Positions 28,134 through 49,462 of a DNA stretch of 64,000 nt are shown here, piece by piece. Position 1 is the first letter of the stretch; the number at the start of each line of letters is the position of its first letter. The stretch lies in assembly GCF_000204195.1 (NCBI RefSeq), contig NZ_AFBG01000018.1:372001-436000 (forward strand), given 5' to 3'. Both the position numbers and the translations under genes were made by a program. This stretch comes from Acidovorax radicis N35. GTDB taxonomy: Bacteria; Pseudomonadota; Gammaproteobacteria; Burkholderiales; Burkholderiaceae_C. The notes beneath the pieces were generated by a model. The model ran no database searches. It saw nothing but the letters and a program-made list of their open reading frames with translations, and was not told the DNA's origin.

Positions 28134-28187
28134 ACAGCCCTCGATTGTAGGGTTGCGGGTTGTAAACGGTCGTAAAATCCCGCTGTT

Positions 28188-28395
28188 GGTGCTCGCGGTG
28201 TGGTTCACATGCCGCAGTTCAACGGGAAGCAGGGAGGAGGCGCCAAACCTGGCGCGCCCAGCCTGCGCTGCCCCCGCAACGGTCAGCGGACGAATCATCC
28301 GATTCTCTCTCCATCCATAAGCCACTGTGTGCCTTGAACAAGCGCATGGGAAGGCATTGGGGGGTGTTCCGCCAGCCCGGATACCGGCCAACACG
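28188..28395 (+). promoter_or_regulatory. Cobalamin (AdoCbl) riboswitch
   Basis: The ordered conserved blocks are present: GGTTCACATGCCGCAGTTC (P2/P3 side), AACGGGAAGCAGGG, the B12-box region GCTGCCCCCGCAACGGT, AAGCCACTGTGTGCC, GCATGGGAAGGC, and the closing AGCCCGGATACCGGCC. A TAAAAT at 28173-28178 may be its -10 element. It leads into btuB and should lower expression of the locus when adenosylcobalamin is plentiful. It is the only cobalamin riboswitch I see. Confidence 0.95.
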
Positions 28396-28487
28396 GTGGC
28401 TGCGTGCGCCCGCTTGGGCGCTTCGCGGCTGTATCACCCATATGCTGGCGGGAGGCCGGCCCGGGTTGTTTGTTGACGATGATCCCC

Positions 28488-30371
28488 ATGAAAATCCGTA
28501 CCCTCCGTGCGCGCCCTGTGGCGTTGCTGCGCCTGCCTGTTCACCGTATTGCCGCAGTGACCCTGGCTGTCGGCACTGCCTGCACTGCCATGGCGCAAAC
28601 CGCCTCCGCAAACGGCGAACTGCTGGCCCAGAATCTGCGCACGCCGTCGCTTTCCGAAACTGTGGTGGCTGCCACGCGCACGCCCCAGCCGCTCGCTGAC
28701 CTAGTGGCCGACATCTCCATCGTGGACCGTGAAACGATCGAGAACAGTGGCGCCACCGGCCTGGCCGACCTGCTGGGCCGCCTGCCTGGCGTGGAGTTCT
28801 CGCGCAATGGTGGCCCGGGCACTACCACGGGTGTGTTCCTGCGCGGTGCCGAATCGCGCTTCACCGCGGTGTACATCGACGGGGTGCGCATCGATTCGCA
28901 GTCCACCGGCGGCGCGCCGTGGGAGAGCATTCCGCTGGGCCTCATCGACCGCATCGAAGTGCTGCGCGGCCCGGCTGGCGCCGTGTATGGCTCGGATGCC
29001 ATGGGTGGCGTGGTGCAGATTTTCACCAAGCGCGGCGAGAACGGCGTGGCGCCCTATGTGGGCGTGGGCATTGGCAACCACAACACCACCAAGGTGGAAG
29101 CCGGCATCAGCGGTGCCAGTGGCACCGTGGACTACGCGCTGGGCTTTGCGCGCGATGACAGCAAAGGCTTCAACGCCCGCACGCTGGCCACCCAGAACCC
29201 CGACCGCGACGGCTACCGCACCACGGCGGGCCATGCCCGCGTGGGCCTGCAGGTCGATGCGGCGCACCGGCTGGAAGGTACGCTGATGGTCAACGAATCC
29301 AACAGCGGCTATGACAGCGGGCTGGGCAAGGACGACCGCAACCTGCACACCATGCACGCCCTGGGCCTCAACTGGATCGCGCAGTGGAGCAGCGCCTACA
29401 AGACGCGCCTGTCCATCACCGACTCCCGCGATGAATACGAAACCCGCCCCTCGCCCTATCTGAGTGACACGCGCCTGCGCGGCTATTACTTCCAGAATGA
29501 ATGGCGCCAGGGCGCGCACCTGGTCACGGCCGCGCTGGAGCGCCGCGAAGACCGCCTGGAAAACGCTCCCATCGATGCCAAACGCTCGCAGGACGCGCTG
29601 GCCCTGGGCTATGGCTACAACGCTGCAGGTCACACCGTGCAGCTCAATCTGCGCCACGATTCCGACAGCGAGTTTGGCGGCAAGAGCACCGGCAGCGTGG
29701 CCTACGGCTATGCCATCACACCGCAGTGGCGCGCCACGGCGTCGGTGGGCACGGCCTTCCGCGCGCCCACGCTGTACCACCGCTTCAGCGAATACGGCGT
29801 GGCCACGCTGCGCCCCGAAAGCAGCCGCAATGCCGAAGTGGCGCTGCGCTACGCCCAGGGCAAGAGCACGTTCTCCACCACGCTGTTCCGCAATCGCGTG
29901 AGCAACCTGATCTCGTTCTCCGGCCCCGGCACCTGCCTGTCGGACTTTGGCTGCTACGCCAACACGGCCCGGGCCGAGTACAAGGGCGTGACGTTTGCCG
30001 GCTCGCACCGCGTGGGCGATGTGCAGTTGCATGGCTCCATCGATCTGCAACGCCCGCGTGATCTGGACACCGGCAAGCAGCTCGCGCGCCGCGCCAAGCA
30101 GCACGCCACCTTCGGCGCCGACACGCGCCTGGCGGGCTGGACCGTGGGCGCCGAAGTGCAGGCATCAGGCCGCCGCTTCGACACCGTGGCCAACACCAAC
30201 GTGTTGGGCGGCTACGCGCTGTTCAACCTCTACGCCAGCACCCGCATTGCGCGTGACTACACGCTGCTGGCCCGCATCGACAACCTGGCCGACAAGGACT
30301 ACCAGCTGGCCCGCACCTACGCCACCGCAGGCCGCACGGTGTACGTCGGTGTGAAGTGGGCGCCGCAATGA
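28488..30371 (+). CDS. btuB: TonB-dependent cobalamin outer-membrane receptor BtuB
   Basis: Outer-membrane 22-strand barrel importing cobalamin with TonB energy. The 627 residues carry a signal peptide ending near AMAQ, a TonB-box-like SETVVAATR, the plug landmarks GLADLLGRLPGVEF and DRIEVLRGPAGAVYGSDAMGG, and a barrel ending in an aromatic-containing strand (TVYVGVKWAPQ). ATG 28488 is chosen for a compact signal peptide; ATG 28479 is also in frame. The riboswitch directly upstream makes the cobalamin assignment strong. The stop runs into a GC-rich repeat. Confidence 0.94.
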   Translation: MKIRTLRARPVALLRLPVHRIAAVTLAVGTACTAMAQTASANGELLAQNLRTPSLSETVVAATRTPQPLADLVADISIVDRETIENSGATGLADLLGRLPGVEFSRNGGPGTTTGVFLRGAESRFTAVYIDGVRIDSQSTGGAPWESIPLGLIDRIEVLRGPAGAVYGSDAMGGVVQIFTKRGENGVAPYVGVGIGNHNTTKVEAGISGASGTVDYALGFARDDSKGFNARTLATQNPDRDGYRTTAGHARVGLQVDAAHRLEGTLMVNESNSGYDSGLGKDDRNLHTMHALGLNWIAQWSSAYKTRLSITDSRDEYETRPSPYLSDTRLRGYYFQNEWRQGAHLVTAALERREDRLENAPIDAKRSQDALALGYGYNAAGHTVQLNLRHDSDSEFGGKSTGSVAYGYAITPQWRATASVGTAFRAPTLYHRFSEYGVATLRPESSRNAEVALRYAQGKSTFSTTLFRNRVSNLISFSGPGTCLSDFGCYANTARAEYKGVTFAGSHRVGDVQLHGSIDLQRPRDLDTGKQLARRAKQHATFGADTRLAGWTVGAEVQASGRRFDTVANTNVLGGYALFNLYASTRIARDYTLLARIDNLADKDYQLARTYATAGRTVYVGVKWAPQ

Positions 30372-30492: not shown

Positions 30493-31872
30493 ATGTCCCA
30501 CAGGGTTGCTGAAATGACCAGGTGCCCCGCGCTGCTGATCGCAGCCCCGGCCTCCGGGCAGGGCAAGACCACCGTCACCGCCGCCCTGGCGCGCCTGCAT
30601 GCGCGCCAGGGGCGGCGGGTGCGGGTGTTCAAGTGTGGGCCGGATTTTCTGGACCCGCACTGGCACCAGCTGGCCAGCGGGGCGCCGGTGCACCAGCTCG
30701 ACCTCTGGATGAATGGCGAGGCGGACTGCGCGCAGCGTCTGCATGACGCGGCGCGCGAGTCGGACCTGGTCCTGGTCGAAGGGGTGATGGGGCTGTTTGA
30801 CGGCACCCCCAGCGCGGCCGACCTGGCCCGGCACTTTGGTGTGCCCGTGCTGGCGGTGGTCGATGCCTCGGCCATGGCAGGCACGTTTGGCGCGCTGGCT
30901 TTTGGCCTGCGCCACTATCGCCCGGGCCTGCCCTGGGCCGGCGTGCTGGCCAACCGCGTGGGCAGCACGCGCCACGCCGACATGCTGCAGGGGGGCTTGC
31001 ACGACGCCGACGACTGGATGGGGGCGCTGATGCGGGTGCAGTCCGGCACCGCGCCCGCTTCGGGCAAGGCCGGTTCGGCGCTGCTGCCCGAACGCCACCT
31101 GGGTCTGGTCGCGGCGCATGAGCTGCCCGACAGTCTGCAGCGGCTGGACGCCGCCGCCGATGCCCTGGCGGCGACGCCCCTGGGCCAGATGACGCTGGAG
31201 GACCTGCAGCGCTGGGCCGTGGAGTTTCCGGCTCCCTCAGTGGGAGCCGCCGTGCCGCCGCTGTTGGCAGGCCGCACCGTGGCCGTGGGGCGCGATGCGG
31301 CGTTCTGCTTCATCTATGCCGCCAATGTGGAGTGCCTCACGCAAATGGGTGCACGCGTGGAGTTCTTTTCGCCCCTGCACGACGCGGCGCTGCCCGACTG
31401 CGATGCCGTGTGGCTGCCCGGCGGCTACCCTGAGCTGCACACCGTGCAGATCGCCGCCAACACCGGCATGCAAGCCAGCCTGCGCGCCCATGGGGCCGCA
31501 GGCAAGCCCCTGTGGGCCGAGTGCGGCGGCATGATGGCGCTGTTTGAATCCATCACCCTGGCCGATGGCAGCACGGCCCCGCTGTGGGGGCTGCTGCCCG
31601 GCCGCGTGGTCATGCAAAAACGCCTGGCGGCGCTCGGGCCGCAGCAACTGACCGTGGCGGGGAACACCCTGCGCGGCCATACGTTCCATTACTCCACCAG
31701 CGACAGCAATGCGCCTGTGGTGGCCCGCACGGCCCGTCCGAACGAGGCGGTTGCACCGGATGCGGGTGAGGCGCTGTACCAGCAGGGCAGCCTCCACGCC
31801 AGTTATTTCCATGCGTGGTTCCCGTCCAGTCCTGAGGCGGTGGCGCATCTGCTGGGAGGCGTTTCGTCATGA
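30493..31872 (+). CDS. cbiA: Cobyrinate a,c-diamide synthase CbiA
   Basis: Cytoplasmic ATP- and glutamine-dependent amidase of 459 residues acting on cobyrinic (or hydrogenobyrinic) acid. The ATP-binding segment APASGQGKTTVTAAL and KCGPDFLDPHW near the N-terminus are typical. The C-terminal glutaminase has the nucleophile in LWAECGGMMAL and a late HASYFHAWF histidine. Two ATG codons fit (30493 and 30514); the second gives a start closer to relatives. It overlaps cobU by 4 bases. CobB of the aerobic pathway is the same family, so the symbol depends on the route used. Confidence 0.93.
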   Translation: MSHRVAEMTRCPALLIAAPASGQGKTTVTAALARLHARQGRRVRVFKCGPDFLDPHWHQLASGAPVHQLDLWMNGEADCAQRLHDAARESDLVLVEGVMGLFDGTPSAADLARHFGVPVLAVVDASAMAGTFGALAFGLRHYRPGLPWAGVLANRVGSTRHADMLQGGLHDADDWMGALMRVQSGTAPASGKAGSALLPERHLGLVAAHELPDSLQRLDAAADALAATPLGQMTLEDLQRWAVEFPAPSVGAAVPPLLAGRTVAVGRDAAFCFIYAANVECLTQMGARVEFFSPLHDAALPDCDAVWLPGGYPELHTVQIAANTGMQASLRAHGAAGKPLWAECGGMMALFESITLADGSTAPLWGLLPGRVVMQKRLAALGPQQLTVAGNTLRGHTFHYSTSDSNAPVVARTARPNEAVAPDAGEALYQQGSLHASYFHAWFPSSPEAVAHLLGGVSS

Positions 31873-32462
31873 CCCCCACCCCGCACCCCATCACCACTGA
31901 ACTCATTCTCGGTGGCCAGAAAAGCGGCAAGTCGCGCCGCGCCGAGCTGCTGGCGCGCGACTGGCTGGCGCAATCCAGCGACCACCGCGCGGTGTTGATT
32001 GCCACGGGGCAAGCCTGGGACGACGAAATGCGCGAGCGCATCGCCCGCCACCAGCGCGACCGCGCCGAGCGCGTGCCGGGTCTGCAGACGGTGGAAGAGC
32101 CGCACGACGTGGCCGCAGCCCTCACGCGGCTCAGCACGCCGCAGACCCTGCTGGTGGTGGACTGCCTCACGCTGTGGCTCACCCACTGGACCATGCCCAT
32201 GGGCGTGGAAACCATGAATTTTGAACAAAAACAGGCTCTGGCGCTTGATTGGCAAGCGCAAGCAGCTATGTTTTTGATAGCGGTTCGGAAATCCCCCGGC
32301 CCCGTTGTTCTGGTGGGCAACGAAATTGGCCTGGGGGTCATCCCGATGGGACGCGAGGTGCGCGCTTTCGTGGATGCGCTGGGCACGCTGAACCAGCAGG
32401 TGGCCCAGGTGTGCCCGCGCGTGACGCTGATGGCCGCCGGGCTGCCATTGACCTTGAAATGA
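31869..32462 (+). CDS. cobU: Adenosylcobinamide kinase / adenosylcobinamide-phosphate guanylyltransferase
   Basis: Bifunctional 197-residue enzyme that phosphorylates adenosylcobinamide and adds GMP in nucleotide-loop assembly. The P-loop is GGQKSGKS at residues 15-22. The family VVDCLTLWLTH and LVGNEIGLGVIPMGREVR segments follow. Residues about 117-138 (LALDWQAQAAMFLIA region) are encoded by a dispersed repeat, copy C, at 32219-32282. The ATG overlaps the cbiA stop. The repeat lies in the segment that varies in length within the family, so activity is probably kept. Confidence 0.94.
   Translation: MTPTPHPITTELILGGQKSGKSRRAELLARDWLAQSSDHRAVLIATGQAWDDEMRERIARHQRDRAERVPGLQTVEEPHDVAAALTRLSTPQTLLVVDCLTLWLTHWTMPMGVETMNFEQKQALALDWQAQAAMFLIAVRKSPGPVVLVGNEIGLGVIPMGREVRAFVDALGTLNQQVAQVCPRVTLMAAGLPLTLK
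32219..32282 (+). repeat. Dispersed two-hairpin repeat, copy C (inside cobU)
   Basis: GCGCTT (32241-32246) pairs with AAGCGC (32254-32259); GCTAT (32264-32268) pairs with ATAGC (32277-32281). Read as LALDWQAQAAMFLIA in the same element frame as copy B. GC content drops sharply against the flanks. Confidence 0.88.
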
Positions 32463-32466
32463 AACT

Positions 32467-33369
32467 ATGAAACCAACCCCCGTGCGCCGCATCCTGTGGG
32501 TCATCGCCATCCTGTTGTTGCTGGGCCTGCTCATGGCCGGGCTGGCGCGTGCGCAGCCGGTGCACATCAAGGACGACCGGGGCCGCGAGGTCTCGCTGCC
32601 CCGGCCGCCGCAGCGCATCGTGAGTCTGCTGCCCTCGTTGACGGAAAGCGTGTGCGAGCTGGAGCAATGCCACCGGCTGGTGGGGGTGGACCGCTATTCC
32701 AACTGGCCCGAGGCCGTGATCGGCAAGCTGCCCAAGGTGGGCGGTGGTATCGACCCGAGCATCGAGGCCATCGTGGCGCTCAAGCCGGACCTGGTGCTCA
32801 TGTCCGTCAGCTCGCGCGCCAGCGACCGGCTGGAAGCGCTGGGCCTCACGGTGGTGCAACTGGAGCCCAAGACCCATGCCGACGTGCGCCGCGTGCTGGG
32901 CACTGTCAGCGACCTGCTGGGCGTGCCCCGCGCGCAGGGCTCTGACCGCCTCTGGCGCGTGATCGATGCGGGCGTGCTCGCGGCGGCACAGTCCCTACCG
33001 CCCAAGGCCAAGAACGCGCGCGTGTACTTCGAGGTGAGTCGCGGGCCTTACGCGGCGGGCGAGGCGTCGTTCATCGGCGAATCGCTCACCCGGCTGGGGG
33101 TGCGCAACGTGGTGCCGGCGTCGCTCGGTCCGTTCCCGCGTCTGAACCCCGAGTTTGTGGTGCGCGCCAACCCCGACATCATCATGATCGGCAACCGCAG
33201 CATGCAGGCCATGGTGCCGTACCCCGGCTGGGCCACCATGCGCGCCATCCGTGACAACCGGCTGTGCGTGTTCGGCCCGGGTGATTCGGATGTGGTGGTG
33301 CGGCCTGGCCCGCGCATGGCCGAAGCCGCCCGCATCATGGCGCGCTGCCTGGTGGACAAGGCCCCATGA
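32467..33369 (+). CDS. btuF: Periplasmic corrinoid-binding protein BtuF
   Basis: Helical-backbone (FecB-type) binding protein of 300 residues serving the BtuCD importer. The N-terminus has an Arg-rich start and a hydrophobic stretch (WVIAILLLLGLLMAGLA) ending AxA, so it is exported or membrane-tethered. Family landmarks are RIVSLLPSLTESVCEL, IEAIVALKPDLVLM and a C-terminal RPGPRMAEAARIMA. It overlaps btuC by 4 bases. Iron-chelate binding proteins share the fold; the riboswitch-led context favours corrinoids. Confidence 0.9.
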   Translation: MKPTPVRRILWVIAILLLLGLLMAGLARAQPVHIKDDRGREVSLPRPPQRIVSLLPSLTESVCELEQCHRLVGVDRYSNWPEAVIGKLPKVGGGIDPSIEAIVALKPDLVLMSVSSRASDRLEALGLTVVQLEPKTHADVRRVLGTVSDLLGVPRAQGSDRLWRVIDAGVLAAAQSLPPKAKNARVYFEVSRGPYAAGEASFIGESLTRLGVRNVVPASLGPFPRLNPEFVVRANPDIIMIGNRSMQAMVPYPGWATMRAIRDNRLCVFGPGDSDVVVRPGPRMAEAARIMARCLVDKAP

Positions 33370-34400
33370 CCAGCGTCCCGATGGACCTGCCAACCGGTTC
33401 CGCCAGCCGCCGCGCGGCATGGTGTGCCGCCTGGCTACTGCTTGCGAGTGTGATCCTGGCCGTGTGTGGCGCCAGCGTGGGCAGCACGGGCTTTGACAGC
33501 GTGCTGCGCATGCACGGCGACCCCGTCGCCTGGCAGATCGTGTGGGACATCCGCCTGCCGCGCACGCTGGGTGCGTGGCTGGCGGGTGCGCTGCTGGGCC
33601 TGTCAGGCGCGGTGGCGCAGGGGCTGTTCCGCAACCCGCTGGCCGACCCGTACTTGCTGGGCAGCGCCTCGGGCGCCGCGCTGGGCGGGGCGGTGGCCAT
33701 GGCCATGTTCGGCGTGTCACCGGTGGCGGCGCAGTGGCTGGCGCGCATTGGCATCACGGGCATGGCTTTCCTGGGCGCGGCGGGGGCGGTGGTGCTCACG
33801 CTGCTGCTCGCCAAGGGCGTGCAGCACACGCTGCGCTTGTTGCTGGCGGGGGTGATTGTGGGCGTGGTGCTGGGTGCGCTGCGTGACCTGGTGGAACTGG
33901 CCTCGCCCGACATCCTGCAGGCCATGCAGGCCTTCACGCTGGGCAGCACGGCTTTTGTGGGCTGGGCGGCCTGCTTGCTCATGGCCGTGGCCTGGGCGCT
34001 GTGCTCGGTGGTTGCCTGGATGCTGGCGCGCGCTCTCGACGGCCTCACGCTGGGCGAGGCCACGGCCGCCAGCCTGGGCCTGCCGCTCATGCCCATGCGT
34101 GTCGGGCTGGTGGCTGCCATGGCGCTGGCCACGGGCACGGCGGTGGCGCAGACGGGGCTCATCGCCTTTGTGGGGCTGGCGGCCCCGCACCTGGTGCGTT
34201 CCATCGTGCGCGTGACACACGAACGGCACATCGTGCTCTCCAGCCTGATGGGCGCGGTGTTGCTCATGGCGGCCGACATCCTGGCGCGCTGGCTGCTGGC
34301 GCCGCAGGAGCTGCCCGTGGGCGTGCTCACGGCGGCCCTGGGCGGCACCTATCTGCTGTGGCTCATGCACCGGCGCACCTCGCAAGGAGGTGCGCTATGA
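33366..34400 (+). CDS. btuC: Corrinoid ABC transporter permease BtuC
   Basis: FecCD-family permease of 344 residues with about ten helices. The typical segments are VWDIRLPRTLGAWLAGALLG, GLFRNPLADPYLLGSASGAALG and GLIAFVGLAAPHLVRSIV; the last contains the loop that contacts the ATPase. The start overlaps btuF. The stop codon lies within a dispersed repeat (copy D), whose terminal hairpin also holds the btuD start. Confidence 0.93.
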   Translation: MTSVPMDLPTGSASRRAAWCAAWLLLASVILAVCGASVGSTGFDSVLRMHGDPVAWQIVWDIRLPRTLGAWLAGALLGLSGAVAQGLFRNPLADPYLLGSASGAALGGAVAMAMFGVSPVAAQWLARIGITGMAFLGAAGAVVLTLLLAKGVQHTLRLLLAGVIVGVVLGALRDLVELASPDILQAMQAFTLGSTAFVGWAACLLMAVAWALCSVVAWMLARALDGLTLGEATAASLGLPLMPMRVGLVAAMALATGTAVAQTGLIAFVGLAAPHLVRSIVRVTHERHIVLSSLMGAVLLMAADILARWLLAPQELPVGVLTAALGGTYLLWLMHRRTSQGGAL

Positions 34401-34437
34401 AATCAATAGCTATCAGTGCAAATGGAATAAGCGCCAG
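34393..34437 (-). repeat. Dispersed two-hairpin repeat, copy D (btuC/btuD junction)
   Basis: Reverse orientation. On the plus strand GCTAT (34395-34399) pairs with ATAGC (34406-34410), and the GCGCCAG end is at 34431-34437. The ATG of btuD (34397) and the TGA of btuC (34398-34400) fall in the first arm and loop of the hairpin. Confidence 0.75.
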
Positions 34438-35215
34438 CATCGGGAATCGCTCGATATTGCAGGGCATTGACCTGCAATTGCCCGCCGGACGCTGGACCAG
34501 CATCGTCGGCCCCAACGGCGCGGGCAAGTCCACCCTGCTCAAGGTGCTGGCGGGCCTGCTGCCACGTGTGGCGGTGCAGGGCGACGTGTTGTTGCTCGGC
34601 CGCCCGCTGGCGCAAATCCCGGCGCGTGAACGTGCCCGCCAGCTCGCCTGGCTGGGCCAGAACGAAGGCTCGGCCGACGACCTCACGAGCTACGACGTGG
34701 CCATGCTGGGCCGCCTGCCGCACCAGGCCTGGCTGGCGCCGCCGGGTGCCGCTGACCATGCGGCCGTGGAGCAGGCGCTGCGCACCACGCAGGCCTGGGA
34801 CTGGCGCCACCGCCCGCTGTCGCAGCTGTCGGGCGGCGAACGCCAGCGCGTGCTGCTGGCCCGCGCTCTGGCGGTGCAGGCGCAGGTGCTGCTGATGGAC
34901 GAGCCCCTGGCCAACCTGGACCCGCCGCACCAGACCGACTGGCTGCACACCATGCGTGCGCTGGTCGATGCGGGAGGCACGGTGGTCAGCGTGCTGCACG
35001 AGGTGTCGCTGGCGCTGCAGGCCGACGACATGGTGGTGATGGCACAGGGCCGCGTGCTGCACCAGGGCGCTTGTGATGCGCCCGATACCCACGCCGCGCT
35101 GGAAAGCGTGTTTGACCACCGCATCCACGTGCGGCATCTGGATGGCATGTGGATGGCGCTGCCCTCCCTGCAACGCAAGAACAACCACCAAGGAATGAAG
35201 GAAGTGCAAGCATGA
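34397..35215 (+). CDS. btuD: Corrinoid ABC transporter ATP-binding protein BtuD
   Basis: Cytoplasmic ATPase of 272 residues for BtuC. Walker A is GPNGAGKST near residue 40, the signature is LSGGERQRV, Walker B is VLLMDEPLANLDPPH, and the switch histidine is in VLHEVS. The ATGA start overlaps the btuC stop. Residues 1-14 (MKSIAISANGISAS) are encoded by repeat copy D, giving an N-terminus not expected from relatives. The stop overlaps the ExbB-like gene, so the chelatase-like trio is coupled to this importer. Confidence 0.93.
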   Translation: MKSIAISANGISASIGNRSILQGIDLQLPAGRWTSIVGPNGAGKSTLLKVLAGLLPRVAVQGDVLLLGRPLAQIPARERARQLAWLGQNEGSADDLTSYDVAMLGRLPHQAWLAPPGAADHAAVEQALRTTQAWDWRHRPLSQLSGGERQRVLLARALAVQAQVLLMDEPLANLDPPHQTDWLHTMRALVDAGGTVVSVLHEVSLALQADDMVVMAQGRVLHQGACDAPDTHAALESVFDHRIHVRHLDGMWMALPSLQRKNNHQGMKEVQA

Positions 35216-35679
35216 ACATCGAATCGGGTTTTTCGCAGGTTGCGCAGTCGTTGCTGTGGCCGGTGCTGGTGCTGGTGGGGCTGGCGTTTGTCTACGCGCT
35301 GTGGTCGGGCGGCGCCACGCTCATGGAGGCGTGGCAGCGCTGGCGCCAGCCGCAGTACCGCTCGCTGCGCGTGGCCCCTGGCTTGTCGATGGAAGAGCTG
35401 GAGCTGCAACTGGTGCGCCAGGTGGAGCCCGTGCGCCTGCTCAGCCGCCTGTCGCCCATGCTGGGGCTGATCGCCACGATGATCCCACTCGGCCCCGCGC
35501 TGCAGAGCGTGGCGGCGGGCAACGGCCAGCAGGCGCTCGCCGTTTTCAGCGGCGCCTTTGCGGGCGTGGTGCTGGCGCTGGCCGCCGCGTCGGTGGGCCT
35601 GGTGGTGTACTCGGTGCGCCGCCGCTGGCTGCTGGCCGAACTGCTGGTGGTGCGCAAGGAGCGCGGGGTGGCGCAATGA
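35212..35679 (+). CDS. MotA/TolQ/ExbB-family proton channel protein
   Basis: Inner-membrane protein of 155 residues with three predicted helices, one near the N-terminus (SLLWPVLVLVGLAFVYALW) and two after a cytoplasmic loop. The family core is LLSRLSPMLGLIATMIPLGPALQ followed by FSGAFAGVVLALAAASVGLVV. It is shorter than E. coli ExbB. The ATGA start overlaps btuD and the stop overlaps the DUF2149 gene. ExbB-type proteins turn proton flow into mechanical work with an ExbD partner. Here the partner is probably the DUF2149 protein, and the driven protein the exported CobN-like one; both pairings are inferred. Confidence 0.88.
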   Translation: MNIESGFSQVAQSLLWPVLVLVGLAFVYALWSGGATLMEAWQRWRQPQYRSLRVAPGLSMEELELQLVRQVEPVRLLSRLSPMLGLIATMIPLGPALQSVAAGNGQQALAVFSGAFAGVVLALAAASVGLVVYSVRRRWLLAELLVVRKERGVAQ

Positions 35680-36062
35680 GCTTGAAGCACCTGAATGTGC
35701 TGGCCGAGGACGACGACGATCCGATGCTGTCCGCCGTGAATCTGGTGGACGTGTTCCTTGTGCTGGTGGTGGCGCTGCTCACGGCCGTGGCCGTGCAAAC
35801 CCAGACCAGTGCGAATGAGAGCGTCACCATCATCCGCAACCCCGGCCAGCCCGACATGGAAGTGGTGGTGCGCGAGCAGGGCAAGGAAGTGCGCTTCAAG
35901 GGCGCTGGCAGCGCCGCGCAAGGGCAGGGCGTGCGCGCGGGCGTGGCCTACAAGCTGGAAGACGGCAATATCGTCTACATCCCTGAAACGGGCACTGCTC
36001 CTGCCGGCGCTTCGGCCGGTGGCGCGGGTGGCGCCGCCACGCCGGCACCCGCCAAGCCATGA
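35676..36062 (+). CDS. DUF2149 protein, probable ExbD-like partner
   Basis: A 128-residue protein with one N-terminal helix (about residues 23-42, LVDVFLVLVVALLTAVAVQT) just after a short acidic cytoplasmic arm (AEDDDDPMLSAVNLVD). The helix contains an aspartate at its edge, as ExbD/TolR proteins do. A small predicted periplasmic domain ends in a Gly/Ala/Pro-rich tail. The arrangement resembles ExbD. DUF2149 has no function I know of; I recall it near ExbB-like and CobN-like genes elsewhere. It overlaps both neighbours by 4 bases. Confidence 0.8.
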   Translation: MSLKHLNVLAEDDDDPMLSAVNLVDVFLVLVVALLTAVAVQTQTSANESVTIIRNPGQPDMEVVVREQGKEVRFKGAGSAAQGQGVRAGVAYKLEDGNIVYIPETGTAPAGASAGGAGGAATPAPAKP

Positions 36063-39000
36063 AGGCGCTGATCTTGCGTGCGGCACTGTGGTGCCTGCTG
36101 CTGGCTGCGCCGCTGGCGCACGCCGTCCAGGCGGAGAAGACCCAGGCTGCGGGCAGCGCCGATAAAACGGCGCCCGTGCTGCTGTGGCTTACCTCCGACA
36201 TCACCACGGCCACGCGCACGGCCATGGTGCAGCGCCTGGCCTCCGACGCGGGCCTGGGCTTTGTGCACATCGACTACCCCCTGGCCGGCCCGGCGGTACT
36301 GGACGCGGCCCAGGCCCAGAAGCTGGAGCGCGCGCTGGCAGGCGCCGTCATGGTGTGGGTGGATGCACCGCATGCCAGCGTGGAGGCGCGCTTGCGCCGC
36401 ATGGTCGGCGCGCAGCTCGATGCCCGTGCCGCACGCGCCCCGGGCCGCGTGGTTTGGGTGCCTGCGGGCACGCCTGCTGTGGAACTGTCCGCGCTGGAGG
36501 CTCCCGCCCGCATGGTGGCTTACCTGCAGGCGGGCGGCCCGCGCAACCTGAAGAACGCCGTCGCGCTGGCGCGCGCCACGGTGGCAGGTGTTGCGATGCC
36601 GACCTTGCCCGCGCCCGACATCCTTCCCCCCCGGGGCATCTACCACCCCGACGCACCCCGCCTGCTGCCCAACGCCGCCGCGCTGGAGGCTTGGCGCCAG
36701 GGCGAGCCCGCGCTGCGCAGCCTGCCCGCCGTGGCCGTGCTGGTGCACCGCCACCACTTCATCGACGGCAGCACGGAGTGGCTCGACGCCTGGCTGCGCA
36801 CCTTCCGCCAGCAAGGCCTATTCGCCTATGCCGCCTTTGGCCAGCAGGTCACGGCGCAGACCCTGTCCGAGGTGCTGGAGCTGCCCCCCGGAAGCGGCAC
36901 CGGCCCGGGCCGCCTGCATGCCTCGGCCCTGGTGCTGCACCAGCTCGTGCCACAGGCCGCCGCGCTGCAGCCGCTGCTGGCCCGCTGGGGCGTGCCCCTG
37001 CTGGGCACGCAGCCGTACCGCGCAGGCGATGCCGCTGCGTGGGAGGCGAGCGACACGGGCTTGTCGCTGTCCGATGTGCCGTTCTATCTGGCGCAGCCTG
37101 AGGCGGCGGGTGCCATCGACCCGGTCCTGGTCGCGGCCCACGGCGCCGAGGGCCGGGACTTTCGCCTCATCGAACGCCAGGCCCAGGCCGTGGCCGCCAA
37201 GGCGCGGCGCCTGATTGCGCTGCAGACGAAGCCTGCCGCCGACAAGCGTCTAGTGGCCATGGTCTACAACTACCCCCCGGGCGGCACCAACTTCGGCGCC
37301 TCGTTCCTCAACGTGCCGCGCAGCCTGGAGCAAGTCTCGGGCGGCCTGGCCCAGGCGGGCTACCGCACCGAGCGTGTGCCCGAGCAGGGCTGGATCGATG
37401 GGCTCAAGCCGCTGCTGGCCGCCTATTACCCCGGCGCCGATGTGCGCGCGCTGCTGCAAACCGGCCAGGCCGCCGCGCTGCCGCTGGCGCGCTACGAGCA
37501 GCACCTGGCCACGCTGCCGAAGGCCGTGCGCGAGCGCATGAACGCGCACTGGGGCGCGTCCGAAAAGAGTCGCTACCTGGTCGAGTGGCAGGGCGAAAAA
37601 GTGTTCGCCATCCCGCGCCTGCAGGTGGGCAAGCTCTCGGTATTGCCCCAGCCCCCGCGCGAAGAAACGCTGCGCCTGGGCCAGAACCCGTTCATGCACA
37701 AGTCCAAGGCGCCGCTGTCGCACCACTACCTGGCCGTGTACCTGTGGGCGCAGTTGGAGGCCGATGCCCTCATCCACTTCGGCACCCACGGCACGCAGGA
37801 ATGGGCCGGTGGCAAGGCGCGTGCGCTGGATGTGTACGACGACGCGCTGCTGCCCCTGGGCGACCTGCCCGTGGTCTACCCCTACATCGTGGACAACCTG
37901 GGCGAGGCGCTCACCGCCAAGCGCCGGGGCCGCGCCGTGCTGGTGAGCCACCGCACGCCCGTGTTCGCCCCGGCAGGCTTCGAGGCGCGCATGGCCCACA
38001 TGCACGAGGTGATGCACGAATGGGAAACGGTGGACGAAGGCCCCACACGCCGCGCGCTCGAAAAGCAGCTGGTGGCGCAGTTTGTGGAGCACCAGCTGCA
38101 CCGCGACCTGGGCTGGAGCGCCGCGCGCATTGCGGCCGACTTCAGTGGTTTCCTCGAAATCCTGCACCCCTACCTGGACCAACTCGCGCAAAGCTCGCAG
38201 CCCAAGGGCCTGGCCGTGTTCGGCCGCGTGCCCGCGCCCGAGCAGCGGCGCGAGACCATCCTGCAGGCGCTGCGCAAGCCGCTGATCGAGGCGCTGGGCG
38301 AGGACATCGACGAAGCCTTCCTGATCAAGCACGACGCGGTGCTGGCCGCACGGCCCGCGCGCTGGCTGGAAGTGGCGTTGACCGACGCGCAGGCCGCCAG
38401 CGTGTTGGACCTGCGCCCCGTGCTGCCAGCGCAGGCTGCAACGCCGGGTGCAGCGGGTGCATCCGACGTGGTGCGCGCCGAAGACCATGTGCCCAACCGC
38501 GCCGCGCGCAAACCCATCGACACGCCCGCGCTGCTGCAGCTGGCCCAGCGCGCGCAGGAGCTGGAGCGCCTGCTGGCCACCGAAGGCGAGATGCCCGGCC
38601 TGCTCGCGGGGCTGGGGGGCCGGTTTCTCACCGCTGCGTACGGCGGCGACCCCATCCGCAACCCCGAGAGCCTGCCCACAGGCCGCAACCTCACGGGGCT
38701 GGACCCGAGCCGCCTGCCCACGCGCCAGGCCTATGCCGTGGCGCAGACGCTGTTCAACGACTGGTTCAAGGACTACCAGGCGCGCCATGGCGGCCAGGCG
38801 CCGCAGCGCATGGCGCTGTCGCTGTGGGCGGGCGAAACGCTGCGCCACCAGGGCATCATGGAAGCGCAGGCGCTCGTGGCGCTGGGCATGCGCCCGGTGT
38901 GGGACGACTCGGGCCGCCCGGCGCGCGTGGAGACCATCGCCGCCGATGAACTCAAGCGCCCGCGCGTCGACGTGCTCATGAGCACCACCGGCTCGTACCG

Positions 39001-40282
39001 CGACCAGTTTCCCGCGCTGATGGCGCTGCTCGACCGCGCGGTGGCCCAGGCCGCCACGGCCGAGCCCGGCAATGTGATTGCGCGCAATACCGAGCAGATC
39101 GGCCAGGAGCTGCGCAAGCAAGGCGTGCCCCGCGCACAGGCAGAGCAACTGGCACGCGTGCGGTCGTTCGGCAATGCGGTGGGCGACTACGGCACTGGCC
39201 TGTCGGACGCGGTGCAAAGCGACGGCCTGCAAACCAACGATGCGCGCCTGGGCCAGATGTTCCTCGAGCGGATGAGCCAGCCTTATCTGGAGGGCGAGCC
39301 GGTGACGGGGGTTGCGGGCGGCACGGCGGCGAAGGCGCTGGGAGCGCACCTGCGCCGCACCGACGCAGCCATCCTGTCGCGCAGCTCGAACCTGTACGCC
39401 ATGGTCAGCTCGGACGACCCGTTTCAGTACCTGGGTGGCCTGTCGGCCGCAGCCCGTGTGGCCGGCCGGCCGCAGGGGCTGGAGCTGCATGTGGCCCAGC
39501 TGCAGGATGTAAGCGAGCCCACCACCGAAACTGCACAGCGCGCCATTGCGCTCGAGATGCAGTCGCGCTACCTGCACCCGGGCTGGCTCAAGGCGCAGAA
39601 GGCCGAGGGCTATTCGGGCACGCTGCAGGTGCTCAAGGCCGTGCAATTCGCCTGGGGCTGGCAGGCCGTGGCGCCCGACACGGTGCGCAGCGACCATTGG
39701 CAAAGCTTCTATGACGTGCTGGTGCGCGACAAGCACCAGCTGGGCCTGCCCGAGTGGCTCAAAGAGCATCCACAGGCCTATGCCCAGTCCCTGGAGCGCC
39801 TGGTGCAGGCACAGCGCCAGGGTTATTGGCAGGCCGACGCCGATACGCAAAAACAGCTCGCGCAGATGTACCAGGAGCTCACGCGCGCCGCGCCGCTGGC
39901 GGCCGAGCTGCCCAGTGTGCGCCGCTGGGTGGAGCAGGCCGCGCAGGGCGTCGCCCCTGCGTCTACCGGCATGGCCGTGGCCACGCCGCAGTCGCCTGCG
40001 GCCCCGGCGCCGCAGCCCGCACCGCCTGCTGCCGACCTGCCTGCACCGCCCGCCCAAGCGGAGGCCCCGTCCGCCGCACCCACTATGCCCGCCATGGGCG
40101 TGCTGCTGGAGCGCCAGCCCGAGCGCGAAGCCCTCGACACCGCCCAAGAGCCCAGCCCCGTGGAGCGCATGGCCGGCATCGTGGCCCTGCTGGTGATGGC
40201 CCTTGTGGTGCTTGCGGGCGCTGCGTGGCAGGCCCGCCGTCCGTCTTCACTGTCCGCAGCGCCCGGCCTGGCCCGCGCTTGA
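36059..40282 (+). CDS. Exported, membrane-anchored CobN-like protein
   Basis: A 1407-residue homologue of the large cobaltochelatase/magnesium-chelatase H subunit. CobN-type landmarks include [48 protein letters not shown] and [16 protein letters not shown]. Unlike cytoplasmic CobN it begins with a signal peptide ([17 protein letters not shown]). It ends with a Pro/Ala-rich linker (about 1320-1360), one helix (1371-1390, [20 protein letters not shown]) and a basic tail. The bulk should therefore face the periplasm. No CobS/CobT or ChlI/ChlD ATPase partner is in the window. Together with the ExbB-like and DUF2149 genes, translationally coupled upstream, it may handle corrinoids or cobalt in the periplasm using proton-motive force. 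Ordinary cobalt insertion cannot be excluded. Confidence 0.85.
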
Positions 40283-40310: not shown

Positions 40311-40880
40311 ATGCAGATCGAAACCCCACCCACCGAGAAGCGCTACGAAAAGCCCGAGGGCGAACGCCGCGGCATCGTCATCGTCAATACCGGCGACGGC
40401 AAGGGCAAGAGCACAGCGGCCTTTGGGCTGGCGCTGCGTGCCCACGGCCGGGGCAAGGCCGTCAAGATTTACCAGTTCATGAAGGTGCCCACGGCGCGTT
40501 TTGGCGAGCACCGCATGTTCGAGCAACTCGGCCTGCCCATCGAGGGCCTGGGCGATGGCTTCAGCTGGAAGAGCAGGGACCTGGAGCACTCGGCCCAGCT
40601 GGCGCGCGACGGCTGGGAGAAGGCGCGCGCTGCCATCCTGTCGGGCGAACATTTTCTGGTGGTGCTCGACGAGATCACCTATCCGCTGATCTACGGCTGG
40701 CTGCCGCTCGAAGGCGTGCTGCAGACGCTGCGCGACCGGCCCAAGGAGGTGCATGTGTGCCTCACCGGCCGCCGCTGCCCGCCAGAAATCATCGAGCTGG
40801 CCGACACGGTGACCGAGATGCAGATGGTCAAGCACGCGTTCAAGGCGGGCATTCCCGCGCAGCGCGGCATCGAGGACTGA
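40311..40880 (+). CDS. cobO: Cob(I)yrinic acid a,c-diamide adenosyltransferase
   Basis: ATP:corrinoid adenosyltransferase of the CobA/CobO type, 189 residues. The P-loop is [14 protein letters not shown] near residue 28, followed by [27 protein letters not shown] and [15 protein letters not shown]. The ATG at 40311 gives the usual short N-terminal arm; the open frame upstream overlaps the CobN-like gene and is not needed. It sits 28 bases after that gene. Confidence 0.95.
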
Positions 40881-40947
40881 GGTCCCGCCACCCTCGGCAG
40901 CCCTGGTGGGCCGCTGTTTCGTTTTCGGTTTTTTGTTCGTCCTTTTC

Positions 40948-43065: not shown

Positions 43066-43093
43066 TCTTGGTGAGTCGAGCGAGGAACGGCGC

Positions 43094-44641
43094 ATGGTGA
43101 AGAAGCTCGTCATCTTTGTGCACAAGTGGCTGGGCGTGGTGCTGGCGCTGTTCTTCCTCATGTGGTTCGTGAGCGGGGTGGTGCTGTATTTCGTGCCGTT
43201 CCCCAGCCTGACGCAGGCCGAGCGGCTGGCGGCCTTGCCGCCGCTTCAGCTGCCTGCCGATTGCTGCCTGGCCGCGCCCGATGCCGCTCAGCGCGCGGGC
43301 TTGCGCCCGACTGGTGGCGGCGAGGCGCGGCTGGGCATGCTGGGCGATGCGCCTGTGTGGCGCATGCTGGCGGCGTCAGAGGCGGGCGCGGCCCTGCGCT
43401 GGCACACGGTGGATGCCCGCACCGGGGCCGTGGTGCCACCACTCAGCGATGCGCAGGCCGCCACCGTGGCCGAGGCCTTCAGCGGGCGCCGTGCCATGGG
43501 CACCGAATGGGTGGAGCGGGACCAGTGGACGGTGCCCCAGGGCCTGGATGCGCACCGCCCCCTGGTCAAGGTGCTGCTCGACGGCGACGATGGCCTGGAG
43601 CTGTATGTGTCAACCGGCGCCGCTGAGGTGGTGCGCGACACGCGCCGCGCAGAACGCTTCTGGAACTGGCTGGGCGCCGTGCCGCACTGGATCTACCCCA
43701 CGGTGCTGCGGCAGTTCCCCAAGGCCTGGCACCACGTGGTGGTGTGGCTATCGATCCCTGGTGTGCTGTTGGCCGCCACGGGCATTGCGCTGGGTATCTG
43801 GCAGCTGTTCCTGAACCGGCGGCGCTGGATTCCCTATCAGAAGTTCTGGATGCGCTGGCACCACATCCTGGGCCTGGTGGCGGCGGTGTTCACGCTCACC
43901 TGGATGTTCTCGGGGCTGATGTCGATGAACCCCTTTGGCGTGTTTACCGGCCGCGCGGTCGACCCACAGGCGCGCACGCAATGGGCGGGGGAGGCTCCGC
44001 GCATGGTGCGCGGCCCGGCCGAGGCCGTGGCGCTGGCGGCGGCCGAGGGGCTGGTGCCGCTGGAGGTGGACACCTTGCGCATGGCCGGCCAGGCCTGGTA
44101 CCGGGTGCGGGGCCAGGGGGAGGGCGTGGTGCAACGCCTGGTGCGTGCCGACGGGCCCGAGGCCACCGTGGCGCAGGCCGTGCCCGATGCAGCGGTACTG
44201 GCTGCCCTGCAGGGCCTGCGCCCGGGCATGCCAGCGCCGAGCATTGAACAAGTCACCCAGTACGACGGCCTGTACTATGCGCGCCACCATGACGCATCCA
44301 CTTCCTTCCACCGTCCGCTGCCCGTCTGGCGTGCCCACTGGGCTGAGGACGAAGTGACGGTGTACGCCGACGCTGCCTCCGCCCGCATCGTGATGCGTGC
44401 CGACGCCTCCACGCCCTGGCAGCGGTTGCTCTACAACGGACTGCACAGCCTGGACTTCGCGCCGCTGCTGGCGCGCCCGGCATTGCGTACCGGGCTGATC
44501 GTGGGGCTGTCGCTGCTGGGGGTGGCGCTGTGCATCACCTCCTGTGTGGTGGCCTGGCGTGTACTGGTGCCGCGTCGGCGGCGGGCTGCACGGTCGTCAT
44601 CGGCCACCGTGCGGGCAGCGGAGGGCGCATGGACAGCCTGA
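43094..44641 (+). CDS. PepSY-associated transmembrane protein, probable chelate reductase
   Basis: Inner-membrane protein of 515 residues with about four helices (first KLVIFVHKWLGVVLALFFLMWF, later GVLLAATGIALGIWQL, ILGLVAAVFTLTWMFSGLMSM and a C-terminal pair) and periplasmic PepSY-type domains between. Histidines in the helices (VHKWLG, RWHHILGL) resemble haem or metal sites. Relatives such as FpvG and PiuB are linked to reduction of iron-siderophores in the periplasm. It is 28 bases after the receptor gene and its end overlaps cbiB by 13 bases, so it is co-expressed with cobalamin genes. Reduction of a corrinoid or chelate is inferred. Confidence 0.87.
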   Translation: MVKKLVIFVHKWLGVVLALFFLMWFVSGVVLYFVPFPSLTQAERLAALPPLQLPADCCLAAPDAAQRAGLRPTGGGEARLGMLGDAPVWRMLAASEAGAALRWHTVDARTGAVVPPLSDAQAATVAEAFSGRRAMGTEWVERDQWTVPQGLDAHRPLVKVLLDGDDGLELYVSTGAAEVVRDTRRAERFWNWLGAVPHWIYPTVLRQFPKAWHHVVVWLSIPGVLLAATGIALGIWQLFLNRRRWIPYQKFWMRWHHILGLVAAVFTLTWMFSGLMSMNPFGVFTGRAVDPQARTQWAGEAPRMVRGPAEAVALAAAEGLVPLEVDTLRMAGQAWYRVRGQGEGVVQRLVRADGPEATVAQAVPDAAVLAALQGLRPGMPAPSIEQVTQYDGLYYARHHDASTSFHRPLPVWRAHWAEDEVTVYADAASARIVMRADASTPWQRLLYNGLHSLDFAPLLARPALRTGLIVGLSLLGVALCITSCVVAWRVLVPRRRRAARSSSATVRAAEGAWTA

Positions 44642-45630
44642 GGTCCGTGCTTCTCCCCGGCACAGGTGCGGCGCTGTTCCACGTGCTCTTGTGGTGCCCG
44701 TTGCTGGCGCTGGCGGTGGATTGGTGGCTGGGCGAGCCGCCCGTGGCCTGGCACCCCGTGGTGTGGATGGGCAAGGCGCTGCAGTGGTGGGGTGACCGGC
44801 TGGCGCCCACGGCGCCTGTGGCCCGTGATATCAAGCTTTTTTGGCGCTCAGCGCTTATCTGGTGTGCGTTAGCAGCTATTGTTTTGATAGTTTCGTGGGT
44901 GGCGCAGCATCTGGTGCTGATGTTCCACGAGTTCCTGGCAGTGGCATTGCTGGCGTTGCTCCTCAAGCCGCTGCTGGCCTGGCGCATGTTGCACGACGAG
45001 GTGCTGGCGGTGGAGGTGGCACTGGGCCAGTCGCTGCCCGCCGGGCGCGCGCAGCTGGCCCGCTTGGTGAGCCGTGATGTGAGCGCGCTCACCGCCGTTC
45101 AGGTGCGCGAGTCGGCCATCGAGTCGCTGGCCGAGAACCTCAACGATTCGGTGGTGGCGCCGCTGTTCTGGTTTGCGCTGCTGGGTCTTCCGGGCGCCGC
45201 GCTGTACCGGTTTGCCAACACGGCCGATGCCATGTGGGGCTACCCCGGCATGCGCGGTGGACGCTATTGGCAATGGGCGGGCAAGTGGGCGGCGCGGGCG
45301 GACGATGTGTTGTCATGGGTACCCGCGCGCATCACGGCCTTGCTGCTGGCGGTGGTGGCCCAGGGCCTGCCGTTTTCAGCGCTGGCGCGACAGGCGCGCA
45401 AGACGCCATCCCCCAACAGCGGCTGGCCCATGGCGGCCATGGCACTGGCGTTGGGCGTGCGCCTGGCCAAGCCGGGTGTGTACACGCTGCACAGCAACGG
45501 CCGCCGGGCCGGGCCGCTCGATACGCGGCGCGCGGCGCGCCTGGGCACCCAGGTGGTTCTGGCCATGGTGCCGGTGGTGGTGGCCATCCAGCTCCTGGTG
45601 CTGGTGGCTTTTGCATGGGTGCACGCATGA
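44629..45630 (+). CDS. cbiB: Adenosylcobinamide-phosphate synthase CbiB
   Basis: Integral membrane enzyme of 333 residues that attaches aminopropanol phosphate (or its precursor) to cobyric acid. Family landmarks are DWWLGEPPVAWHPVVWMGK, ESAIESLAENLNDSVVAPLFW, NTADAMWGYPGMRGGRYWQWAG and PSPNSGWPMAAMALALGVRL. The ATG at 44629 is inside the end of the PepSY gene and starts the family N-terminus. Residues about 68-88 (ALIWCALAAIVLIV), which form a predicted helix, are encoded by dispersed repeat copy E. The stop overlaps the next gene by 4 bases. Confidence 0.94.
   Translation: MDSLRSVLLPGTGAALFHVLLWCPLLALAVDWWLGEPPVAWHPVVWMGKALQWWGDRLAPTAPVARDIKLFWRSALIWCALAAIVLIVSWVAQHLVLMFHEFLAVALLALLLKPLLAWRMLHDEVLAVEVALGQSLPAGRAQLARLVSRDVSALTAVQVRESAIESLAENLNDSVVAPLFWFALLGLPGAALYRFANTADAMWGYPGMRGGRYWQWAGKWAARADDVLSWVPARITALLLAVVAQGLPFSALARQARKTPSPNSGWPMAAMALALGVRLAKPGVYTLHSNGRRAGPLDTRRAARLGTQVVLAMVPVVVAIQLLVLVAFAWVHA
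44828..44891 (+). repeat. Dispersed two-hairpin repeat, copy E (inside cbiB)
   Basis: GCGCTTATC at 44851-44859, a partly matching GCGTTAGC, then GCTAT (44875-44879) with ATAG (44887-44890). Read as ALIWCALAAIVLI in the same element frame as copies B and C. Base composition falls well below the flanks. Confidence 0.82.
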
Positions 45631-47503: not shown

Positions 47504-47882
47504 GGTGTATGACTACGCCATCGTGCGCGTGGTGCCGCGCGTGGAGCGCGAGGAGTTCATCAACGCGGGGGTGATCCTCTCGTGCCAGCGCACCGGCTTT
47601 CTGCAGGCCGCCATCGCGCTCGACGAGGCGCGCCTGCTGGCCATGGACCCGCACGCCGATATCGACACCGTGCGCCGCCATCTGGCGGCCATTGTGGCCA
47701 TCTGCGCGGGTGATGAAGGCTGTGGCCCGATTGCGCGCCTGCCGTACCGCCAGCGCTTCCACTGGCTCACGGCCAAGCGCAGCGCCATCATCCAGACATC
47801 CCCCGTGCACACGGGCCGTTGCACCGATGCGGCGGCAGCACTCGATCACATCATGGACCGCATGGTCCGCCCACTGCCTTGA
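47490..47882 (+). CDS. DUF3037 protein
   Basis: A 130-residue protein beginning YDYAIVRVVPRVEREEFINAGVILSC, the DUF3037 hallmark, with a C-terminal segment RFHWLTAKRSAIIQTSPVHTG. No signal or membrane helix. Function is not known. It overlaps the HipA-like gene by 14 bases, and this two-gene pairing is, as I recall, found in other bacteria as well, which suggests the proteins act together. The end overlaps the likely TTG start of cobQ. Confidence 0.82.
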   Translation: MHAPEVYDYAIVRVVPRVEREEFINAGVILSCQRTGFLQAAIALDEARLLAMDPHADIDTVRRHLAAIVAICAGDEGCGPIARLPYRQRFHWLTAKRSAIIQTSPVHTGRCTDAAAALDHIMDRMVRPLP

Positions 47883-49399: not shown

Positions 49400-49462
49400 G
49401 CGCTGGTGCCTTCGGCCTTCAGTCCTTCCCGTTTCTTTTTTCTTTTCGCTATCTCACACACC

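Follow-up and report, generated by a model that had tools for sequence, protein, structure and literature searches.

A 64,000-nucleotide stretch of the Acidovorax radicis N35 genome (contig NZ_AFBG01000018.1, positions 372,001 to 436,000), referred to here as the window, includes a cluster of vitamin B12 genes in which three consecutive genes encode a short ExbB-like protein, a DUF2149 protein and a large CobN-like protein predicted to be exported. Open reading frames (ORFs) were placed in families by Pfam and NCBIfam profile scans and the cluster was found, with the RF00174 model, to be headed by a cobalamin riboswitch, which had been overlooked in an earlier note on this DNA. In window coordinates the features are:

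28170..28406 (+): cobalamin riboswitch aptamer (RF00174; 78.5 bits, gathering threshold 31.5), heading the cluster directly before btuB
28404..30371 (+): btuB-like TonB-dependent receptor (TIGR01779 TonB-B12, 405.5 bits, under the cut-off of 599.7)
30493..31872 (+): cobB, cobyrinic acid a,c-diamide synthase (NF002204, 407.5 bits, cut-off 254)
31869..32462 (+): cobU/cobP (NF004469, 151.5 bits, slightly below the cut-off of 161)
32467..33369 (+): btuF-like periplasmic binding protein (Peripla_BP_2, 7.8e-22)
33366..34400 (+): btuC-like permease (ORF and position)
34397..35215 (+): btuD-like ATPase (ABC_tran, 4.7e-31 on 34400-35215; start by inspection)
35212..35679 (+): short ExbB-like protein, 155 amino acids (MotA_ExbB passed by homologues; ExbB/TolQ at the top of fold searches)
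35676..36062 (+): DUF2149 protein, 128 amino acids, one helix with Asp25 (PF09919, 1.6e-23)
36059..40282 (+): CobN-like protein of BtuS/HmuS type, predicted exported, 1407 amino acids (PF02514 CobN-Mg_chel, 3.4e-255)
40311..40880 (+): cobO/btuR, corrinoid adenosyltransferase (PF02572, 3.6e-60; NF004637 above its cut-off; start by inspection)

The btuB-like frame opens at a GTG codon and its true start is probably 28479 or 28488. From btuD, whose frame ends at 35215, through the ExbB-like and DUF2149 genes to the CobN-like gene, each junction is a 4-base overlap; the ORF check returned the coordinates given in the earlier note, which had described the three genes as overlapping in this way and as coupled to btuD. 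The same note had predicted a signal peptide and a single C-terminal helix for the CobN-like protein, and hydropathy agrees: the N-terminus is hydrophobic, and towards the C-terminus a hydrophobic peak begins at about residue 1371. The C-terminus consists of a Pro/Ala-rich linker, a GxxLE-type short motif and one helix. Several residues can be compared with those of HmuS, the membrane-bound, NADH-dependent, CobN-like heme dechelatase of Bacteroides whose cryo-electron microscopy structure was reported in 2025 (PMC12583661):

36059..36124 (+): signal-peptide-like N-terminus, about residues 1-22 (hydropathy)
36371..36373 (+): His105, near HmuS heme ligand Met79 (39/40 in the clade; mapping uncertain by a few residues)
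36938..36940 (+): His294, adjoining the column of HmuS heme ligand His254 (42/42 in the clade)
37787..37789 (+): His577, equivalent to HmuS His538 (alignment with HmuS)
37904..37906 (+): Glu616, equivalent to HmuS Glu577 (alignment with HmuS)
39413..39427 (+): D1119-D1120-P-F-Q1123, against D-H-V-Y-E in HmuS (alignment)
39956..40096 (+): Pro/Ala-rich linker, about residues 1300-1346 (sequence)
40091..40111 (+): AMGVLLE short motif around the invariant Gly1347, ahead of the helix (sequence)
40169..40228 (+): C-terminal helix, about residues 1371-1390 (hydropathy)

The trio is conserved as a unit. Scanning named genomes with a single protein yielded 45 loci, the nearest named relatives being Acidovorax with up to 96% identity. 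The ExbB-like and DUF2149 genes adjoin the CobN-like gene in 38 of these, and in the other seven (L079, L082, L090, L095, L098, L099, L104) the available DNA starts inside or at the start of the CobN-like gene; the grouping is thus not a matter of chance. At least one B12 gene (cobO, cobB, cobU or btuFC) was matched in 40/45 loci and none in L085, L087, L088, L095 and L101; two of these five, L095 and L101, are truncated at contig ends. Three of the five (L085, L087, L101) were tested, and in each a gene of the ZrgA family, periplasmic zinc-binding proteins with His-rich stretches (PMC9820375), lies directly before the trio and is itself preceded by the riboswitch. In Azonexus hydrophilus the trio and riboswitch occur with no neighbouring cob genes. 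Three Rhodocyclales loci combine trio, riboswitch and ZrgA with no Btu transporter or receptor genes seen nearby, and a Comamonadaceae bacterium plasmid carries the trio with no annotated B12 or receptor gene in 23 kb, its gene table being possibly incomplete. A reverse search with DUF2149 in 229 genomes from the class and 300 from the order returned 15 and 22 matches, respectively, outside the window's own genome; both an ExbB-like and a CobN-like gene share the locus for 15/15 and 19/22. The partners are in some cases a few kb away or on the opposite strand, and in four of the 19 order-set loci the CobN-like gene is a fragment at a contig end. The three order-set exceptions are L169 together with L171 and L172, both of the latter below the DUF2149 family cut-off.

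As judged from sequence, CobN-like proteins encoded near ExbB-like and DUF2149 genes tend to have export-type ends. Among 119 CobN-family ORFs of at least 1050 amino acids (129 profile matches before the length limit), hydrophobic stretches as scored by hydropathy were present at both termini in 61 of the 73 with an ExbB or DUF2149 gene within 5 kb and in 1 of the 46 without; neither end was hydrophobic in 38 of these 46. Several misfits are truncated or over-extended ORFs, and the count is descriptive and carries no probability, since the rows are related and some are doubled by overlaps (L109/L136, L131/L137, L105/L135). The GxxLE-type pattern, defined after the tails had been inspected and missing from those type B and Aureibacter tails that were viewed (see below), occurs in 35/73 ORFs with the pair in the locus and in 1/46 without. 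L137, an HVGKHG-type CobN-family protein from the same bacterial family, has an AAA+ chelatase-type neighbour (best match TIGR02442, 382.6 bits, below cut-off).

The window ExbB-like protein matches no Pfam or NCBIfam family. Its homologues from L035 and L027, however, pass MotA_ExbB (39.1 and 27.5 bits; cut-off 22.9), and the ExbB-type partner proposed earlier has support from sequence. The structural model of the window ExbB-like protein has three helices and is confident (predicted local distance difference test score, pLDDT, 89.2). In Foldseek its top 30 rows all belong to ExbB or TolQ, the best E-value of 0.057 being not significant alone; with VIA-align, TolQ gave a Z of 10.2, short of the level recommended for helical folds, and the unrelated CorA, at 9.6, ranked among the ExbB/TolQ rows. 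In DUF2149, Asp25 lies in the only helix and does not vary in two alignments, of 16 and 10 rows, that have three rows in common. The 89 DUF2149 profile matches include overlapping shadow frames, and a pattern count of 72/89 was set aside. The arrangement resembles ExbB-ExbD-TonB and TolQ-TolR-TolA in its apparently ExbB/TolQ-like helices, in its one-helix partner with an Asp and in having a client whose single helix accompanies a Pro-rich linker; it differs in that the ExbB-like protein is short (155 amino acids), DUF2149 did not align with ExbD by profile and the client is anchored at its C-terminus.

Such a pair could merely energise TonB for BtuB, the CobN-like protein being a bystander or a separate enzyme. 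HmuU and HmuV have been interpreted as TonB energisers (PMC10100974) and TonB-dependent receptors are near in most loci. However, four ExbD matches lie elsewhere in the host genome, so that TonB need not depend on the ExbB-like/DUF2149 pair, no receptor gene was seen near the plasmid trio or the three Rhodocyclales trios, and the pair co-occurs with a helix at the C-terminus of the CobN-like protein. We regard this alternative as quite unlikely, and the coupling of the pair to the CobN-like protein instead of TonB as moderately probable.

The riboswitch strengthens the corrinoid context that had been proposed for the locus. Within the clade of the window protein (the window clade), it was found in 17/17 named loci scanned, which cover 17 of the 45. 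The sister locus L142 gave no match in a stretch that stops at btuB. Two further types of locus were recognized. Type A comprises genes for a TonB-dependent receptor and for the CobN-like, ExbB-like and DUF2149 proteins and showed a cobalamin riboswitch in 0/8 loci scanned; one of these, L027, has the gene order of Pseudomonas aeruginosa PA1922-25, which is Zur-regulated and associated with zinc starvation (PMC9431628, PMC13083405, PMC10393844). Among type B loci the riboswitch is present in 6/7 scanned, L031 being the exception, and in L036 and L037 it directly precedes the CobN-like gene; all six riboswitch-bearing type B loci carry cobO and most carry btuB or cobB. Trees of chosen rows (59 in a quick tree, in which HmuS is represented by a row from an Aureibacter plasmid, and 31 for the approximately unbiased, AU, test) place the window clade, L142 and L175 beside type A proteins and keep type B apart. 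A single joint B12 clade of the window clade and type B was rejected (p-AU 9.15e-6), the grouping having been named after the quick tree had been seen. Because the trees keep type B apart and the joint clade is rejected, the link to B12 control appears from these sequences to have arisen, or to have been exchanged, at least twice.

The host genome (5.5 Mb, 100% complete by the tool's figure) encodes a single CobN-family protein, that of the window. Further late B12 genes lie downstream of cobO:

44530..45630 (+): cbiB/cobD (PF03186, 1.4e-81 at 44701-45498; ORF)
47819..49399 (+): cobQ, cobyric acid synthase (NF001989, 518.5 bits, cut-off 273)
49406..50533 (+): cobT-type dimethylbenzimidazole phosphoribosyltransferase, not the chelatase subunit CobT (TIGR03160, 412.8 bits, cut-off 319.3)

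CbiC/CobH is required for the corrin ring by either route. No CbiC/CobH was found in the host genome with a profile positive in 7/14 known genomes used as controls, and late genes (cobB, cobU, cobO, cbiB, cobQ and the phosphoribosyltransferase cobT) are present; the host therefore most likely salvages corrinoids. Twelve genomes carry the module in a B12 setting (G000, G397, G867, G253, G299, G342, G072, G089, G121, G140, G155, G202); CbiC was not found in 10 of them, and CbiB was found in 10/10 genomes with the module that were tested. Two genomes, G384 (L135) and G867 (L141), carry an HVGKHG-type CobN with no CbiC/CobH found; cytoplasmic cobalt insertion without ring synthesis, that is, use of imported metal-free corrinoids, would fit there.

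The absence of classical chelatase partners, noted earlier for the locus, extends to the genome for those searched. CobT_C gave no match genome-wide (the profile was positive in 2/14 control genomes; CobS was not included in the search) and Mg_chelatase gave one strong match, a 527-amino-acid frame which we take to be ComM/YifB, and four weak ones (21.8-31.2 bits). This bears on the automatic name of the window protein, which would make it the classical cobaltochelatase CobN of de novo B12 synthesis: it scores 1476.9 bits with NF004644 ("cobaltochelatase subunit CobN", cut-off 1248). The model for classical CobN, TIGR02257, gives it only 394.5 bits against a cut-off of 822.05, compared with 1732.3 for the classical CobN of L136. 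With export-type ends, and with neither CobT nor CbiC found in the genome, the classical assignment was ruled out as extremely unlikely. NF004644 likewise takes L027 (1449.2 bits), which has the gene order of the Zur-regulated PA1922-25, and leaves L136 under its cut-off at 592.8 bits. Since the window protein and L027, both with export-type ends, pass and the classical protein fails, NF004644 looks like a misnamed exported subfamily, and its name could make salvage-only genomes look like B12 producers. The window protein nonetheless shares the CobN/ChlH fold family and the HxGxHG motif with the class-I chelatases CobNST and ChlHID. These differ in being cytoplasmic and driven by AAA+ ATPases, and cytoplasmic CobN requires CobS, CobT and ATP, perhaps for corrin distortion (PMC7689651).

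The best solved match of the window protein is HmuS of Bacteroides thetaiotaomicron (PDB 9d26, 2e-86), which was used for position mapping. In HmuS, replacement of His538 by Ala ended heme demetallation (PMC12583661). This residue, in the HFG(T/A)HG motif, is kept as His577 and HmuS Glu577 as Glu616; equivalents of the catalytic His and its Glu partner are kept in 42/42 rows of the window clade. The HmuS motif LSLDHxxEFMGG is not conserved, His1209 being replaced by Asp1120 and Glu1212 by Gln1123, again in 42/42 rows. At the resulting D-D-Q columns, (N/D/G)-D-Q predominates among classical CobN rows; D-H-E, as in HmuS, is found in six type A proteins, and type B has N-D-D with HxGRHS. The head and neck of HmuS hold a second, non-substrate heme through Met79 and His254 (PMC12583661). 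Neither is kept at those columns; the window clade has His105 and His294 close by, in a region where the alignment is uncertain and where 41 of the 290 columns 41-330 are invariant in the clade, and we infer that the two His residues could form an altered ligand pair. The alignments show an active-site signature distinct from that of HmuS, and membership of HmuS itself was rejected on two HmuS-specific features (His1209/Glu1212 and Met79/His254), with kinship kept.

These residues bear on whether the window protein could be an HmuS-like dechelatase that works in the periplasm and takes iron out of heme or cobalt out of cobalt-tetrapyrroles. In its favor, HmuS is the best solved match and its His538 and Glu577 are kept, kin are controlled by metal starvation (iron for HmuS, Zur for PA1922-25) and a ZrgA neighbour could take up freed metal. 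It is countered by the four HmuS residues not kept as such and by control through a B12 riboswitch rather than iron. Cobalt is moreover very firmly held by the corrin ring. Freed cobalt would have no obvious use in a genome in which no corrin-ring marker was found, and cobalt removal for nutrition fits poorly because no corrin-ring pathway was seen in the host. This alternative is decidedly improbable. The D-H-E signature itself occurs in proteobacterial CobN-like proteins at L028, L029, L147, L162, L166 and L167, which by sequence are candidate heme dechelatases outside Bacteroidota.

We favor a different reading, to which, taken whole, we give about an even chance: the window encodes an exported, anchored CobN relative of BtuS/HmuS type with a dedicated ExbB/DUF2149 channel, acting on corrinoids in the periplasm, with a metal step as the most likely action. 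The BtuS/HmuS-type family placement and a periplasmic corrinoid role are highly probable. Corrinoids would enter the periplasm via BtuB and be bound by the body of the CobN-like protein. The ExbB-like and DUF2149 proteins would use the proton gradient to drive conformational work by way of the linker and C-terminal helix. The exported relatives have a channel pair where cytoplasmic CobN/ChlH has an AAA+ ring, and on the simplest reading common to them the pair may do the ring's job while acting from the membrane. This work would serve a metal step, in which cobalt is inserted into, or metal exchanged in, corrinoids that are metal-free, incomplete or wrongly metallated, and the product would pass through BtuFCD to the late enzymes. 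Metal insertion or exchange is in keeping with the CobN-like residues, with the presence of the ZrgA neighbour and of cobB and with a salvage-only host, and we put it forward as a tentative possibility. Its fullest form, a periplasmic cobaltochelatase powered by the proton motive force, is speculative and on present evidence unlikely. Bacteria lacking the corrin-ring pathway would import metal-free or wrongly metallated corrinoids through BtuB, load or exchange their cobalt outside the cytoplasm and complete B12 with the late enzymes; that judgement covers jointly the suggestions that ZrgA-type proteins might supply metal in some lineages, that the AAA+ motor of CobNST would have its counterpart in the channel pair and that B12 control would have at least two origins.

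Pure capture is still a serious alternative, although a somewhat unlikely one. The CobN-like protein would then be a proton-driven periplasmic receptor that hands corrinoids from BtuB to BtuF, raising uptake at low dose with no metal chemistry. The position of the genes between those for BtuB and BtuFCD, the riboswitch and the conserved clade-specific His residues of the head and neck region, the site of the non-substrate heme in HmuS (PMC12583661), are all consistent with this. Binding alone, however, need not require the catalytic His and its Glu partner, which are kept throughout the clade, and the three Rhodocyclales loci have trio, riboswitch and ZrgA without nearby Btu transporter genes.

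Several observations weigh against the reading we favor. The D-D-Q signature turns up as well at type A loci that lack a riboswitch, and therefore does not by itself mean corrin or cobalt. The sister protein of L142 keeps His105 and lacks His294. At L148 (8919-12869, G704:C18), beside ExbB-like and DUF2149 genes, the HxGxHG motif is lost, and this CobN-like protein is perhaps, to judge from its sequence, a binding-only member. L169 (G285:C1) has ExbB-like and DUF2149 genes and no CobN-like gene in 20 kb. Conversely, L135 (12222-16211, G384:C92) carries a second CobN-family protein with export-type ends beside a classical-type CobN, with no ExbB or DUF2149 gene in the available stretch. Alignment of the ExbB-like protein to an ExbB by hhalign covered 16 columns with a probability of 2.7% (core SPMLGLIATM against SPLLGLLGTV). 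DUF2149 showed no profile relation to ExbD (0.7%), and its equation with ExbD by profile was dropped; the DUF2149 model is weak (pLDDT 62.3). CbiC is present in G089 and G121. Finally, an HmuS expression construct without membrane segments still demetallated heme with NADH (PMC12583661), so that the channel pair is not needed for demetallation in vitro and coupling may not be a strict requirement.

The kind of system described here is already known and its B12 setting had already been hinted at, contrary to the earlier note, which knew of no mechanism of this kind; the overall interpretation given there is thus partly supported. The hmuYRSTUV system of Bacteroides thetaiotaomicron and Porphyromonas gingivalis likewise combines an exported, anchored CobN-family protein with ExbB-like and DUF2149 proteins: hmuS is encoded beside genes annotated as MotA/TolQ/ExbB and DUF2149 (PMC10434189), and an effect of HmuT/U/V on HmuS activity could not be excluded in one report (PMC13227078). 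Unlike the hmu operon, the window cluster has no HmuY or HmuT gene and has a cobalamin riboswitch. BtuS1 and BtuS2 of Bacteroides fragilis, predicted to be exported, were reported in 2018 to affect heme-iron use (PMC6460266), the BtuS family being credited there to Rodionov 2003. BtuS1 resembles the window protein in being CobN-like and predicted exported and anchored, and a riboswitch precedes the B. fragilis hmu-like operon; it differs in belonging to Bacteroidota and, in the text available, in having been studied only for heme iron, the likeness being one of description and not of compared sequences. In Mesle 2023, hmu-like operons preceded by cobalamin riboswitches were noted and a role connected with cobalamin was suggested (PMC10100974). 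PA1922-PA1925 share receptor, CobN-like, ExbD-labelled and DUF2149 genes with the window and differ in their regulation by Zur; L027, without B12 genes or riboswitch, shares the D-D-Q site with the window protein and is 38% identical to it.

Among open-licence literature we found no paper on the proteobacterial B12 module, the ZrgA variant or the active-site signature. What is new here is the 17/17 riboswitch linkage, the second riboswitch-linked clade, the ZrgA variant, the Asp/Gln active site and the failure of the protein to reach the classical CobN model. The well-known class-I chelatases are ATP-driven and cytoplasmic; a periplasmic branch exists, of which mainly a heme member has been characterized, and the B12 branch described here is compact, riboswitch-linked and found in environmental bacteria. 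It makes testable whether a proton channel can power a chelatase-type protein, what such a protein does to corrinoids and whether B12 scavengers use metal-free or wrongly metallated corrinoids.

Some minor observations concern neighbouring genes and a related operon. L174, on plasmid pAT2 of Aureibacter tunicatorum, is a complete hmu-like operon encoding a receptor, HmuY, CobN-like, hypothetical, ExbB-like and DUF2149 proteins, with transposase genes upstream. In the window, ORFs of 285 and 130 amino acids precede cobQ among the cob genes (46646-47882). Between cobO and cbiB (40906-44641) lie a siderophore-type TonB receptor gene and a PepSY_TM gene, which look like an insertion in some lineages because both were matched in only 6/45 named loci (L060, L061, L062, L066, L077, L081) and in L149.

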